This document shows positions 21,286 to 49,939 of a DNA stretch of 64,000 nt, one piece after another (positions within the stretch are counted from its first letter, which is position 1; every line of letters begins with the position of its first letter). The position numbers and the translations under genes are program-made. Source of the stretch: Bradyrhizobiaceae bacterium. Its GTDB lineage: Bacteria; Bacteroidota; Ignavibacteria; Kapaibacteriales; Kapaibacteriaceae. The stretch covers positions 1 to 64,000 of the forward strand of contig JAGFIZ010000089.1 in assembly GCA_024103135.1 (NCBI GenBank), written 5' to 3'. The notes under the pieces were generated by a model that saw nothing but the letters and a program-made list of their open reading frames with translations, was not told the DNA's origin and searched no databases.

Positions 21286-21293
21286 TAAGTTTG
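21286..21293 (+). promoter_or_regulatory. -7 promoter element of the SRP RNA gene (TAAGTTTG)
   Basis: Exact match to TAnnTTTG, 6 nt before the first base of the SRP RNA, the position expected for a Bacteroidota-type -7 element. A TTG lies 23 nt upstream (21260-21262), a little far for a -33 element. Confidence 0.65.
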
Positions 21294-21299
21294 TGGTCT

Positions 21300-21395
21300 A
21301 GCCAAGTCCCGTGCGATTGTGCCGAGCCCAACCCCGCCAGGTCCGGAAGGAAGCAACGGTCAGTTTGTGTACAAGGTGCTACGGATCACTTGGCT
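21300..21395 (+). ncRNA. ffs: Signal recognition particle RNA (4.5S type)
   Basis: About 96 nt. The ends pair perfectly (AGCCAAGT with ACTTGGCT). The apical domain-IV core GCCAGGTCCGGAAGGAAGCA contains the GGAA tetraloop and the asymmetric loop that bind Ffh. Immediately followed by a T-run. Its protein partner gene ffh is at the right end of this window. Confidence 0.95.
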
Positions 21396-21408
21396 TCTTT
21401 TTTTTCTG
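21388..21408 (+). terminator. T-run terminator of the SRP RNA
   Basis: The closing helix of the SRP RNA is followed by CTTCTTTTTTTTC, so the terminal stem of the RNA itself can act as the terminator hairpin. Confidence 0.7.
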
Positions 21409-36473: not shown

Positions 36474-36497
36474 AGGGATACGAAGTTAAGTTGAGGT

Positions 36498-45119: not shown

Positions 45120-46295
45120 TTACTTCAAGTACCGTCGTGGATCTTGTCGGGCCTTCCCATGCCACACTTCGAAATGCACCGAAGCACCATCGATATTCTC
45201 TCCTGACGCACCAAGCGGTGTACCCGCCTTAACCTTAGCCCCCTTCCCAACAGCGACGCTTGAAAGATTTGCGTAGACCGTGCGAATGCCATTGCCATGG
45301 TCGATGATGACGAGTGAGCCAAAGCCAGGGAGCCATGTTACCGACGAAACCGTGCCTGCTGCAACAGCGCGGACGCTGCTACCGACAGGAGTTGCGATGT
45401 CAATGCCAGGATTGTCAAGCGTCGACCCCGTCTCTGGACTCTTATACGCTCCATAGCCATGGAGAATCTTGCGCGAGCTCGTAGGCCAAGGCAATGAGCG
45501 GGCAGCGAAACCTGGAGTGGGCTCTGTGGTTTCCGGTGCCGTTCGCTGCTCCTCGGTAGATCGTTGTTTCCTCCGTCGTGCCTCGCGTTCTGCACGTTCC
45601 TTGCGGGCTGCTGCAGCCACCTGTTCGGCAATGATGGCTCTAAGCTTTGCAACACTGTGTTGTTTCTTTCTTAGTTCCGCTTCTGCTGACTGTTTGTTCT
45701 TGCGGATCGTACTCAAGGCACGAGTACTCTCCTGGATGCTTGCCTTCAGTGATTGCTCTTGTCGGGACTGTGCTTGTATTGCTGTTGACTGAACTTCGGA
45801 GTATTGGTTCAGCAACGATTGCTGTCGGTGCAATGAATCCTTGAGGTTGAGCATTGTCTTTCGGTACCGTGAAAGCTCGGCGGAGAGCGACCGGAATAGC
45901 GGACGGGTACTTGATGGCATACGAAGATTACCACGGTGCTCCGCCTTGAAACGCAGCAGGGCATTGGCTGCCTGATTATACGCTTGTTCCGCTTCGGACA
46001 ATGCAGCTGCCGTAGACCGGATCTGTGTGCGCACAACGGCAGCACTATCCTCCAGTCGTTGCAGTTGCTGTTGCAACTCCACGATAAACGCCGAAATGCG
46101 ATGACGTCGCTTGGTGTAAGCCGAAATGTTGTTACGCTCACTTCGCTCTTGCTTGCGAAGCGATTCAAGTTGCTTTTGCGTGTTGACGATGGATTGCCGG
46201 AGGTCCTGCAACTCCTTCTTCCTGGCGTTGACGGACTGTCCGTACGCCCCCGTGGCTACGAAGGCAAGTATCCAAACGACCAACCACCAACGCAC
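45120..46295 (-). CDS. envC: EnvC-like murein hydrolase activator (degenerate LytM)
   Basis: 391 residues, GTG start, signal peptide (WWLVVWILAFVATGAYGQ). Long coiled coil about 25-245 (QKQLESLRKQERSERNN and similar), then a Pro/Thr linker and a C-terminal LytM/M23 domain about 285-390. The zinc ligands are altered: NPGID replaces the usual HxGxD-like site and SVHFEV has lost the first His of HxH, so it should be an activator of amidases rather than an enzyme, as in E. coli EnvC. Start lies 2 nt after the murA stop, so it is in an operon with murA. Confidence 0.88.
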   Translation of the reverse strand: MRWWLVVWILAFVATGAYGQSVNARKKELQDLRQSIVNTQKQLESLRKQERSERNNISAYTKRRHRISAFIVELQQQLQRLEDSAAVVRTQIRSTAAALSEAEQAYNQAANALLRFKAEHRGNLRMPSSTRPLFRSLSAELSRYRKTMLNLKDSLHRQQSLLNQYSEVQSTAIQAQSRQEQSLKASIQESTRALSTIRKNKQSAEAELRKKQHSVAKLRAIIAEQVAAAARKERAEREARRRKQRSTEEQRTAPETTEPTPGFAARSLPWPTSSRKILHGYGAYKSPETGSTLDNPGIDIATPVGSSVRAVAAGTVSSVTWLPGFGSLVIIDHGNGIRTVYANLSSVAVGKGAKVKAGTPLGASGENIDGASVHFEVWHGKARQDPRRYLK

Positions 46296-46297
46296 GA

Positions 46298-47560
46298 CTA
46301 AAACTCCTCTGTGCGACTCCGAACGATGTTCGCGCCTAGTGCTTGCAAACGTTGTTCGATCGACTCGTAACCACGATCAATGTGGTATACGCGGAGTATC
46401 TCCGACGTGCCCTCGGCCATCAACGCTGCAATGACCAGCGAGGCACTAGCACGAAGGTCGCTACTCATCACCGTCGCTCCGGTAAGCCGTCGGCCTCCAT
46501 GCACGGTACAGCTATTCTCCGTTGTCTCGATTCGTGCTCCTAGCCGCTGCAGTTCCGGCACATAGCCGAATCGAGTCGGGTAGATCGTGTCCTTGATCGT
46601 TGCTGCGCCCTTGGCATGCAACATGAATGCTGCCCACTGAGCTTGTGCATCCGTCGGATAGCTTGGGTAGGGGGCTGCCGTAACGTCCACCGGATTTGGA
46701 TCGTCACTCATGGTAATGCGTATCGTCTCGCCCGTTACATCCAATTCTGCACCAGCTTCTTCGAGTTTCTGAATGATTGCTGCAATGTGATAGGGGTTCA
46801 CATTGTGTAGCGTAACGTCGCCCTTTGTTGCTGCTGCCGCAATGAGGTATGTAGCCGCTTCGATTCTGTCGGGCGTGGTGACCTCGGTCACGGGCTTGAG
46901 AACATCCACACCATCGATCTCGAGTGTTGTGGTTCCAATACCCTCGATTTTTGCGCCCATCTTCTGCAGCATTCGTGCAAGTGCCGTGACCTCGGGCTCC
47001 AGTGCTGCATTCGTAAGGGTGGTGTGTCCCTCTGCAAGTGTTGCAGCCATGAGGACGTTGACCGTCGCTCCAACACTGCTGATGTCAAAATGAAAATGTG
47101 CACCCTTGAGACGCTTGGTCTGCGCAACGATATAGCCCCCTTCCACCGTGATCTCTGCACCGAGCTTTTCCAGACCCTTGAGGTGGAGGTCAACCGGACG
47201 CGGACCGAAGTTGCAGCCACCAGGTAGGGAGACCTTGGCGTGACCGTAGCGGGCAAGGAGCGGACCCAGAACATAGATCGATGCACGCATCTTCTTCACA
47301 TGTTCATACGGTGCTTCGAAGCTGGTGATGGTGGAGGAGTCCATGAAGAGCGTGTTGCCATTCAACTCCGCATGAACACCAAGACTACCAAGGAGTCTGC
47401 TAAAGGTCCACACATCCCTGTTGTTCGGCGTATTCTCCAGGTGGAATACACCCGGTGCCAGCAGGCACGTAGGCATCATGGCAAGCGAGGCATTCTTTGC
47501 GCCGCTGATCTTGACCGATCCGACTAGTCTGTTACCACCTTCGACAATGAATTTGTCCAT
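46298..47560 (-). CDS. murA: UDP-N-acetylglucosamine 1-carboxyvinyltransferase
   Basis: 420 residues. First committed step of peptidoglycan synthesis (enolpyruvyl transfer from PEP). Motifs: SGAKNASLAM with catalytic Lys22, LPGGCNFGPRPVDLH with the fosfomycin-target Cys116, HFDISSVGATVN, and YPTDAQAQW. Transcribed with envC. A TAACTTTG box at 47674-47681 on its strand is the likely promoter. It contains octamers at 46669 and 47134. Confidence 0.97.
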   Translation of the reverse strand: MDKFIVEGGNRLVGSVKISGAKNASLAMMPTCLLAPGVFHLENTPNNRDVWTFSRLLGSLGVHAELNGNTLFMDSSTITSFEAPYEHVKKMRASIYVLGPLLARYGHAKVSLPGGCNFGPRPVDLHLKGLEKLGAEITVEGGYIVAQTKRLKGAHFHFDISSVGATVNVLMAATLAEGHTTLTNAALEPEVTALARMLQKMGAKIEGIGTTTLEIDGVDVLKPVTEVTTPDRIEAATYLIAAAATKGDVTLHNVNPYHIAAIIQKLEEAGAELDVTGETIRITMSDDPNPVDVTAAPYPSYPTDAQAQWAAFMLHAKGAATIKDTIYPTRFGYVPELQRLGARIETTENSCTVHGGRRLTGATVMSSDLRASASLVIAALMAEGTSEILRVYHIDRGYESIEQRLQALGANIVRSRTEEF

Positions 47561-47673
47561 GCTTGCTTTCCGTCCTCATTCACGATGCACTGATCTACGG
47601 GATGCCGATGAAACGTTCTACATTGTCTTGCAATGTTGCCTGTCTCGTAAGCCCACCCGTTGTGTTTATCCTG

Positions 47674-47687
47674 CAAAGTTATCTTTG
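47674..47687. promoter_or_regulatory. Symmetric bidirectional promoter core, CAAAGTTATCTTTG
   Basis: Two -7 elements overlap head to head: TATCTTTG (47680-47687, plus strand, toward the TPP riboswitch) and TAACTTTG (47674-47681, minus strand, toward murA). Together they make an inverted repeat CAAAG-TTAT-CTTTG. The plus-strand element has TTG (47660-47662) 17 nt upstream and ends 7 nt before the riboswitch P1 stem. A matching -33 element for the murA direction is not clear. Confidence 0.65.
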
Positions 47688-47694
47688 TGCAATC

Positions 47695-47780
47695 CGTTAG
47701 AGGTGCTGTTGGTTATCAACACCAACGGCTGAGATCACACTCTTCGTACTTGATCCGGATAATACCGGCGCAAGGAAACG
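47695..47780 (+). promoter_or_regulatory. TPP (thiamine pyrophosphate) riboswitch
   Basis: Matches the THI-box aptamer: P1 CGTT/AACG closing, AGAGGTGC after the 5' strand, a short hairpin (GTTGG...CCAAC), GGCTGAGA, then TTGATCCGGATAATACCGGCG and CAAGGAAACG. The pyrophosphate- and pyrimidine-binding loops CTGAGA and GGATAATACC are conserved. It is 60 nt upstream of the TonB receptor start. GTCC at 47784-47787 could pair with the GGAC of the downstream Shine-Dalgarno (AAAGGACG, 47826-47833), which suggests translational control. Confidence 0.92.
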
Positions 47781-47828
47781 TGATGTCCTGTTACAACCCC
47801 TAGCGGACGTATGCCTTTTTTCACTTAA

Positions 47829-47838
47829 AGGACGCGTC
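47829..47838 (+). promoter_or_regulatory. Palindromic Shine-Dalgarno site GGACGCGTCC
   Basis: A perfect 10-bp palindrome overlaps the ribosome-binding site of the TonB receptor and ends 1 nt before its ATG. It can fold on itself or pair with the riboswitch's 3' flank, so it may be part of the expression platform. Confidence 0.5.
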
Positions 47839-47839
47839 C

Positions 47840-49939
47840 ATGCTCCCACTACTTTTTGCAGCGCTGCTAGCGCCTCAGTCCGCACAAACCGATTCAACTG
47901 ATGTGCGGTCCATCCTTGCCAAGTCGGTTGTCGTAAGCTCCGTTCGAGCGTCCGACCAGGCACCCATCACACAGTCAACGATCGACTCCGTGCGCATTGC
48001 TCGCGAAATGGTCGGTCAGGATGCTGAATACGTGCTTGAGCGCACCATACCCAGCATCGTGGCCTACAGCGAGAGTGGCACGAATCTGAGCAACTACGGT
48101 TCGTTCCGGTTGCGTGGTATGGATCAGACGCGTGTGAACGTCACCCTGAACGGTGCACCATTGAACGACATGATCGATCAAGGTGTGTTCTTTTCCAACA
48201 TCACCGACCTGCTCAATGGCATGCACAGTGTGCAGGTTCAACGTGGCGTTGGTACAGCCAGCAACGGCACGGCATCATTTGCCGGCAGTGTTAGCATCGA
48301 ATCGGCCATGCCCGTGTCGCAAACACCAACGGCACGACTTCAGCTGACCACTGGCTCGTTTGGACTACTGCGTGGTAGCGTAGAAGCCAGCACGGGAACC
48401 ATCGCCGAAGGTGTTTCGGCAACCGTGAAGCTCAGCTCATTCAGCACCGATGGATACCGCTACCACACGTCGACAAGTGGATACAGCGGAATGTTCGGCT
48501 TGTCCATGCAACGTGGGTCGGACCTGTTCCGGCTGACGGCCGTGGGTGGTCGTACTCAGAATCAACTCGGTTACCTGCCCGTGCCTGAGCCCCTTACCAT
48601 CATCGACCCACGAACGAACATCAACGACAGTACCGATCACGATGACTTTGGTCAGTACCTCCTACAGGCAGAATGGAGTCATGCCTTCAACTACCGCACG
48701 GCAATCAGCACGATGATCTATGCCGGCGGGGCAGGGGGCGACTACTTCGGTGGATTCCGAGACAGCATCGGGATGCTTACGCAGATCAACTATCCGCTGG
48801 AGAATCGGAACTACGGCATACTGTCGACCTTCACGCTTGACGACGTATGGAAGGGGGCTAACCTCGCCGCTGGAGTTCACGCCTACACCTTCAGACGTAG
48901 GAATTGGGAAACGGTGAGCCCGGAGAATCTCACACCGTACTATGCCGACACTACACGCAAGCAAGAAGTGTCAGCCTTTGCGAAACTTGCCTGGGACATC
49001 GGCGAGCCAGCAGATTATCCGCATGTACGCGTGCAAGCCGACGTGCAGACACGATATGTGAGCATGGACTTCATTCCCGACGCTGCCTTGTCAGCTACGA
49101 CCATACCACAACACGATTGGCTATTCGTGAATCCCAATGTTGGCGTTCACCTCCAACTCAATGAGCAGCATGAGGCCTATGCTTCGGTGGGGTCAACCGG
49201 ACGTGAACCAACACGTTTCGACCTGCTTGGCGGGACGCAGATCACACCAGCAAACATTCACGTGCTTACTCAGCCCAACACCGTCCGCCCAGAGCATGTG
49301 CTTGATGCAGAGGTTGGCTATCGACTGCGCACGACGGTGTTTGGCGAACTTCAACCCAATCTGACGCTGGATGTGAATGCCTTTGGCATGATGTTTACCG
49401 ACGAGATTGCGCCCGTTGGACAGTATATCGACCAGTACTTCGTACAGCTTCGAACAAACGTTGCCAAGAGTCGGCGTTATGGACTGGAAGCACAACTTCA
49501 CTTGGCAATCACGTCCCGACTGAGCCTGTCGGCAAACCTTACCTACATGAAGTCCAACATCAACAGTGTCTATCTTGCTGCCATCGACTCAACCGTTCAC
49601 AACGTCCAGGCCGTACTCACGCCTGAGTGGGTAAACAGCACCAATCTTCAATGGGACCCACTCTCGTGGTTAGGTATTACGCTTAGCTCGCGAACGCTCT
49701 CGTCATCATTCCTTGAGCTCACCAACGCCTCCAATCTCACGCTGTCCGGCTTTACTCTTGTGGACCTAGGTCTGCAGCTTCACGTTGATGCCGTTCGCTT
49801 TACGTTCAAATGCAACAACCTCGGCAACCTTCAGTACTCGACAAATGGAGGCGTGGACTACAGCACGGGATCGGCAGTACCAGCACTGTTCATGCAGGCT
49901 GGACGCAACTTCTGGATTATGGCAGAGTTGCAGTTCTAG
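47840..49939 (+). CDS. TonB-dependent receptor, probable thiamine/TPP uptake
   Basis: 699 residues. Signal peptide short (MLPLLFAALLAPQSAQT). Plug domain about 30-150 with ERTIPSIVAYSESGT, GSFRLRGMDQTRVNVTLNGAPLN and VQVQRGVGTASNGTASFAGS; then a 22-strand barrel ending in ...WIMAELQF, the aromatic C-terminus needed for outer-membrane insertion. The TPP riboswitch directly upstream argues that the substrate is thiamine or a related compound. The receptor's partner TonB/ExbBD and thiamine permease are not nearby. Confidence 0.92.
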   Translation: MLPLLFAALLAPQSAQTDSTDVRSILAKSVVVSSVRASDQAPITQSTIDSVRIAREMVGQDAEYVLERTIPSIVAYSESGTNLSNYGSFRLRGMDQTRVNVTLNGAPLNDMIDQGVFFSNITDLLNGMHSVQVQRGVGTASNGTASFAGSVSIESAMPVSQTPTARLQLTTGSFGLLRGSVEASTGTIAEGVSATVKLSSFSTDGYRYHTSTSGYSGMFGLSMQRGSDLFRLTAVGGRTQNQLGYLPVPEPLTIIDPRTNINDSTDHDDFGQYLLQAEWSHAFNYRTAISTMIYAGGAGGDYFGGFRDSIGMLTQINYPLENRNYGILSTFTLDDVWKGANLAAGVHAYTFRRRNWETVSPENLTPYYADTTRKQEVSAFAKLAWDIGEPADYPHVRVQADVQTRYVSMDFIPDAALSATTIPQHDWLFVNPNVGVHLQLNEQHEAYASVGSTGREPTRFDLLGGTQITPANIHVLTQPNTVRPEHVLDAEVGYRLRTTVFGELQPNLTLDVNAFGMMFTDEIAPVGQYIDQYFVQLRTNVAKSRRYGLEAQLHLAITSRLSLSANLTYMKSNINSVYLAAIDSTVHNVQAVLTPEWVNSTNLQWDPLSWLGITLSSRTLSSSFLELTNASNLTLSGFTLVDLGLQLHVDAVRFTFKCNNLGNLQYSTNGGVDYSTGSAVPALFMQAGRNFWIMAELQF

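Follow-up and report, generated by a model that had tools for sequence, protein, structure and literature searches.

The DNA analysed here is a stretch of 64,000 nucleotides from a member of the Kapaibacteriaceae (the window), in which murA and a TonB-dependent receptor gene stand head to head across an intergenic region of 279 bp (Table 1). The receptor gene is preceded by a TPP riboswitch aptamer, whose RF00059 score clears the gathering threshold of 54.3 bits and which is the sole TPP match in the genome. On the opposite strand, an EnvC-like M23 peptidase gene lies 2 nt from murA in the list of open reading frames and is probably cotranscribed with it. Between the two divergent genes is the near-palindrome CAAAGTTATCTTTG, which is symmetric at 12 of its 14 positions, with two mismatches against its other strand, and which can be read as TAnnTTTG in either direction. 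The plus-strand element, TATCTTTG, and the minus-strand element, TAACTTTG, have T47680 and A47681 in common. A preliminary description of this DNA had reported just such an inverted repeat of overlapping TAnnTTTG elements, one per strand, and the repeat is confirmed here. In dinucleotide shuffles of the 279-bp region, the fused pattern CAAAnnTAnnTTTG arose in 10 of 20,000 and any divergent TAnnTTTG pair with a spacing of -2 to 31 bp in 31 of 20,000; the pair is unlikely to have originated by chance.

Table 1. Genes, sequence elements and predicted transcript features around the murA/TPP riboswitch intergenic region
Feature	Position	Strand	Description
EnvC-like M23 peptidase gene	45120-46295	-	PF01551
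murA	46298-47560	-	PF00275, 2.6e-101
Predicted murA leader, 109 nt	47561-47669	-	Unusual; -7 element to murA ATG is 3-6 nt in 16/20 loci
Candidate -33 TTG	47660-47662	+	17-nt spacer to plus -7 element
Predicted transcription start, minus	47669	-	From G at -5 (PMC6847099 spacing)
Near-palindrome CAAAGTTATCTTTG	47674-47687	both	Two TAnnTTTG elements sharing central TA
Minus -7 element TAACTTTG	47681-47674	-	Faces murA
Plus -7 element TATCTTTG	47680-47687	+	Faces TPP riboswitch and TonB receptor
TPP riboswitch aptamer	47689-47793	+	RF00059, 67.5 bits, E 4.2e-11
Predicted transcription start, plus	47692	+	From G at -5 (PMC6847099 spacing)
Candidate expression platform	47800-47842	+	CTAGCGG overlapping GGACG; partner CGTCC abuts ATG
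TonB-dependent receptor gene	47840-49939	+	PF00593, PF07715

TAnnTTTG has been reported as the -7 element of promoters recognized by the primary sigma factor of Bacteroidota (sigma-ABfr type), where it is preceded by a TTTG element at -33 (PMC7366714, PMC9723704, PMC6847099), and both strands of CAAAGTTATCTTTG carry the identical -7 word. The standing of this word in the lineage was assessed upstream of genes called by a simple script in 236 kb of the genome (window included) and in 400 kb of a congener, with intergenic gaps below 20 or above 600 bp excluded from the gap counts. Among words of the form XX..XXXX, TA..TTTG ranked first upstream of called genes in both samples, occurring in 22 of 103 upstream regions of the genome (2.4 expected) and in 36 of 179 of the congener (6.3 expected). 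In co-directional gaps, the sense orientation prevailed over the antisense by 12 to 3 in the genome and by 24 to 4 in the congener, and the density in coding DNA was 0.06-0.15 per kb over the two samples. Convergent gaps held the word 0 times in 9 (genome) and 3 times in 15 (congener), so its occurrence alone is no proof of a promoter. An independent and useful calibration comes from the SRP RNA of the window (Rfam match at 21300-21398), where TAAGTTTG (21286-21293) ends 6 nt upstream.

Many TAnnTTTG sites also lie very close to start codons. By the starts that the script called, the end of the site lies 3-7 nt from the start codon in 20 of 66 cases upstream of genes (genome sample, 7 of 24; G005 sample, 13 of 42), which suggests that many mRNAs in this lineage are leaderless. 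Few leaderless mRNAs have been reported in Bacteroides thetaiotaomicron, where 5′ UTRs shorter than 10 nt make up 3.7% of the total, and in F. psychrophilum (5.5%) (PMC7366714, PMC9723704).

The lineage also differs from the published promoter layout in that a -33 element is hardly detectable. A TTG at a spacer of 16-21 nt was present at 14 of 62 promoter-like sites (23%), as opposed to 13.7% of random intergenic positions, which is a weak signal. Hence, while the TTG that had been noted 17 nt upstream of the plus element is indeed there, it is scarcely a telling part of a promoter. On the minus side of the palindrome, the sole TTG has an 8-nt spacer and none occupies the expected -33 place. 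The -7 elements themselves scored 12.3 and 11.5 bits with a -7 matrix, and no further site above 1 bit was found on either strand of 47561-47700; a sigma-70 scan returned one site, inside the riboswitch. A G precedes the TA at 58% of the 62 promoter-like sites, whereas the two palindrome elements have T and A in its place, since the overlap at TA costs both of them this base. In F. johnsoniae, the -7 element is reported to span T-12 to G-5 (PMC6847099). Applied here, this spacing would put the divergent starts 23 bp apart, at about 47692 and 47669, a small correction to the 47694 and 47667 first proposed.

Comparison across the family showed which parts of this arrangement are shared. One TPP riboswitch was found in each of 22 of the 23 family genomes, and murA was head to head with it (within 1.5 kb on that side) at 20 of the 22 loci; no murA was found within 1.5 kb of the riboswitch in G003 and G022. 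All 20 loci with murA have a TAnnTTTG directed towards it, and 17 of them have TATCTTTG, although the family genomes are related and these cases are not 20 independent events. Towards the riboswitch, 21 of 22 loci (all but G004) have a TAnnTT(T/C)G that ends 5-8 nt upstream of the CCGTTAG of the aptamer, which bears out the earlier placement of the plus element where a riboswitch transcript should begin. Both divergent elements occur at 19 loci, with spacings of -2, 5, 5, 5, 6, 7, 7, 7, 9, 15, 16 (five loci), 30, 31, 49 and 80 bp. The preliminary description had held that a palindrome not conserved in close relatives would refute its proposal, and such was the outcome of the comparison with orthologous intergenic regions: the symmetric core, at a spacing of -2, is kept in 1 of 19 (the source genome), and the other 18 have 5-80 bp between the elements. 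The notion of one core serving both transcripts therefore stands in part, with both elements conserved and the word enriched upstream of genes, but not as a conserved fused core. The divergent pair of putative promoter elements is conserved in the family, and its exact TA overlap is local to the source genome.

Beyond the family, the 24 best-scoring loci from 87 genomes of the order's other families with a TPP match were compared. Adjacency to murA was found at 1 of these 24 (three of which end early at contig ends), and TAnnTTYG lies within 10 nt of the aptamer at 15 of 24. Within the family, the element on the riboswitch side is TAnnTTCG rather than TAnnTTTG at 15 of 21 loci (e.g. L004, L005 and L009), the murA side having TATCTTTG at 17 of 20; the receptor promoter may be kept weaker.

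Taken together, the palindrome is probably a pair of divergent housekeeping promoters whose -7 elements share a TA, the rightward one serving the riboswitch and TonB receptor and the leftward one murA and the EnvC-like gene. A primary sigma factor of the Bacteroidota type would read both -7 elements, and both promoters would be active. The sequence itself shows the identity of the motif, its enrichment across the lineage, the conservation of each element and the aptamer. The rightward RNA would begin just before the TPP aptamer and run into the receptor gene, and the leftward RNA would cross a long leader before entering murA and the EnvC-like gene.

The length of that leader speaks for a rival view, in which the plus element alone acts as a promoter, the minus TAnnTTTG arises by accident from the palindrome and murA uses a nearer, unrecognised promoter. 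At 16 of 20 family loci, 3-6 nt separate the murA-directed -7 element from the ATG of murA, which would there be leaderless or nearly so. The distance is longer at four loci, at 28 nt in G006, 51 nt in G021, 73 nt in G004 and 113 nt in the source genome, where the minus element also lacks both a TTG at -33 and the preceding G. Nonetheless, murA needs a promoter in this intergenic region because the gene upstream of it is divergent; no other site above 1 bit lies between the minus element and murA, and the murA-directed word is present in every one of the 20 orthologous regions. An accidental minus element is accordingly unlikely, and two active promoters remain the preferred reading. Two possible accounts of the long leader were rejected. 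A structured leader is not indicated, as the predicted fold of 47561-47667 (107 nt) was not significant (z -1.47, with 15 of 200 shuffles equally stable), and the 113 bp that separate murA from the palindrome do not look derived from a repeat or mobile element, as 47561-47673 is single copy in the genome. The murA gene itself is 70-80% identical in 4 congeners, and its six best matches among named records share 68-79% identity with it (Ignavibacteria bacteria, 69 and 73%; Candidatus Kapaibacterium, 68-70%; another bacterium, 79%).

On the receptor side, the aptamer probably controls translation of the receptor by hiding its start codon. The CCGTTAG of the aptamer, which begins at 47694, is complementary to CTAGCGG (47800-47806), and the latter shares its GG with a GGACG:CGTCC hairpin immediately before the receptor ATG. 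Bound TPP would keep CCGTTAG within P1, thereby freeing GGACG to close the start codon. The pattern of a GGAC with a GTCC at the start codon occurs at 15 of the 22 family TPP loci and was not found by pattern search at the other 7. An anti-P1 partner scores 7/7 at 12 of 22 loci; three of these (L014-L016) rest on G-U pairs, have no hairpin and fall outside the 15. A scan of 47500-47900 revealed no terminator-like site. The predicted ligand-free fold speaks against a clean switch, as it contains the start-codon hairpin together with a shortened GUUAG:CUAGC helix (z -2.98); with both helices formed at once, switching between them is inferred. The riboswitch would probably act on translation, after initiation of transcription.

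A reliance on thiamine uptake would fit the biosynthetic record of the family, as a search that detected ThiC in 13 of 14 control genomes found it in none of the 23 family genomes. The TonB-dependent receptor, judged by its riboswitch, likely imports thiamine or a precursor, and members of the family are probably auxotrophic for thiamine, with a single uptake gene under regulation. In Bacteroidetes, a TPP riboswitch has been described ahead of the OMthi TonB-dependent transporter (PMC5613172). At the present locus, too, the riboswitch immediately precedes a TonB-dependent receptor gene, but the locus is set apart from that account by its divergence from murA, by holding the sole TPP match of its genome and by the lack of a detectable ThiC.

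Bidirectional promoters have been defined as those with divergent starts 7-25 bp apart (PMC10268837), and those of E. coli commonly have starts 18 bp apart, with 10 and 23 bp also common (PMC12825309). The arrangement studied here is most likely an unusual local form of this known kind of two-way promoter. As in the examples from E. coli and other prokaryotes by Warman, Grainger and colleagues (PMC12825309, PMC10268837), a near-symmetric core can be read on both strands, and the 23 bp between the predicted starts falls within the defining range and matches one of the common distances. It differs in that the core consists of TAnnTTTG elements overlapping by TA, rather than of the sigma-70 -10 hexamer, and in that one side feeds a riboswitch. 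The other family loci, with spacings of at least 5 bp, would have predicted starts at least 30 bp apart and hence overlapping or separate divergent promoters. Among the titles and abstract openings of a limited literature collection, no publication on bidirectional or divergent TAnnTTTG promoters in Bacteroidota was found.

Judged by geometry, only one polymerase at a time could use the shared TA, and it is plausible on the same grounds that one would exclude the other. Whether this would matter is doubtful. In E. coli, the basal activity reported for five tested bidirectional promoters was too low for the two directions to compete. Competition set in once one direction was activated, and strong activation in one direction can repress the other (PMC12825309). 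At basal activity, any exclusion at the palindrome would presumably be too weak to work as a switch. It has nevertheless to be considered that the overlap is itself a regulatory device, in which the choice of direction by polymerase couples thiamine uptake to cell-wall synthesis. The expected steric exclusion, the E. coli repression just mentioned and the adjacency of murA and the TPP riboswitch at 20 of 22 family loci would all be in keeping with such a device. However, the overlap is not conserved at the family loci, and the basal weakness of the five E. coli promoters tells against it as well. Moreover, thiamine sensing looks translational; control at that level would leave initiation unaltered, and promoter exclusion could not then carry a thiamine signal to murA. 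Coupling of thiamine to murA by polymerase exclusion is thus unsupported, and we rate the overlap as a regulatory device quite improbable beside plain divergent promoters.

Still less probable is that the palindrome serves as the operator of a dimeric regulator and not as a promoter core, a reading that would have at most a slight chance of being right. A near-perfect 14-bp inverted repeat is what such an operator might look like, and one congener (L021) has the longer CAAAGATACgtgtGTATCTTTG. Yet the relatives share two separate TAnnTTTG or TAnnTTCG elements whose spacing varies more than one would expect of an operator bound by a dimer, and the 14-mer pattern shows no genome-wide enrichment. 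The bare fused 14-mer stood at chance level in the 2.71-Mb genome (2 sites, 1 reversed-control site), and the 23 family genomes held 35 sites against 43 for the reversed control. A genome-wide class of fused palindromes was, by these counts alone, rejected.

The divergent-promoter reading can be followed further at the places where the fused sites fall. A start codon was called within 9 nt on both sides of 8 of the 35 sites, on one side of 9 and on neither side of 18, the murA/riboswitch site being one of these 18; among the 8 two-sided sites, the right-hand frame of L170 is weak and one start codon at L182 is a GTG. A single locus accounts for five of these 8, between terC (PF03741) and aldh, which encodes an aldehyde dehydrogenase (PF00171). 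Each of the 11 genomes of genus g5 in the family set has these two genes divergent, their ATGs 23 or 24 bp apart (L238-L247, L249). A central TA is present in 11/11, with the TA-sharing -7 geometry filling the gap; strict TAnnTTTG occurs on both strands in 5 genomes, and in the other 6 it is confined to the terC side (3 genomes) or to the aldh side (3 genomes). Both mRNAs are apparently leaderless. Outside g5, this two-element gap of 23-24 bp was absent in all 9 other genomes examined upstream of terC. Fused palindromes also occur between the gene for a Big_5-domain protein and brkB in two genera, represented by G021 and by G006 with G007 (L182, L193, L196), the brkB leader being about 25 nt in G006 and G007. 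A third locus, in G005, has one in a 24-bp gap between dus and a glycosyltransferase gene. At the level of sequence, then, the TA-sharing geometry recurs and, at terC-aldh, persists, and because of this recurrence it is probably workable.

Proximity to start codons calls for a more careful count. Counted at 3-7 nt upstream of an ATG, fused palindromes numbered 29 against 3 control hits in the family and 312 against 113 in 122 genomes of the order, with the enrichment missing in some families (f4, 2 against 5; f8, 1 against 2). However, TANNTTTGNNNNATG alone occurred 959 times against 312 control hits in the 23 genomes, and much of the enrichment can be put down to leaderless TAnnTTTG promoters being common as such. 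Of the 959 sites, 14 were fused, as against about 3.7 expected at 1 in 256, and by our grouping these 14 came from about 10 loci. What had seemed a strong enrichment of fused palindromes near ATGs is thereby reduced to a modest excess.

It may be that in this family two TA-sharing -7 elements, forming a single palindrome of about 14 bp, can suffice as the whole promoter region of two divergent genes. The 23-24 bp between terC and aldh hold little else, and the murA/riboswitch site would be another case of this minimal device, with a long leader in either direction; the chances for and against this broader view seem to us evenly balanced. If it is true at terC-aldh, two leaderless mRNAs would arise there, with the choice of start set only by the direction in which polymerase lands. 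The Bacteroidota -7 word is not itself palindromic; here it gains symmetry because a second copy, on the opposite strand, overlaps it at the TA. If such sites are active, a second promoter could arise opposite an existing one by the setting of four bases, and the terC-aldh gaps would offer a natural test piece of 23-24 bp for the choice of orientation by polymerase. Elsewhere in the window, a 24-bp divergent gap (36474-36497) contains imperfect TA-sharing elements, with CGAAGTTA (minus TAACTTCG) and TAAGTTG on the plus strand.
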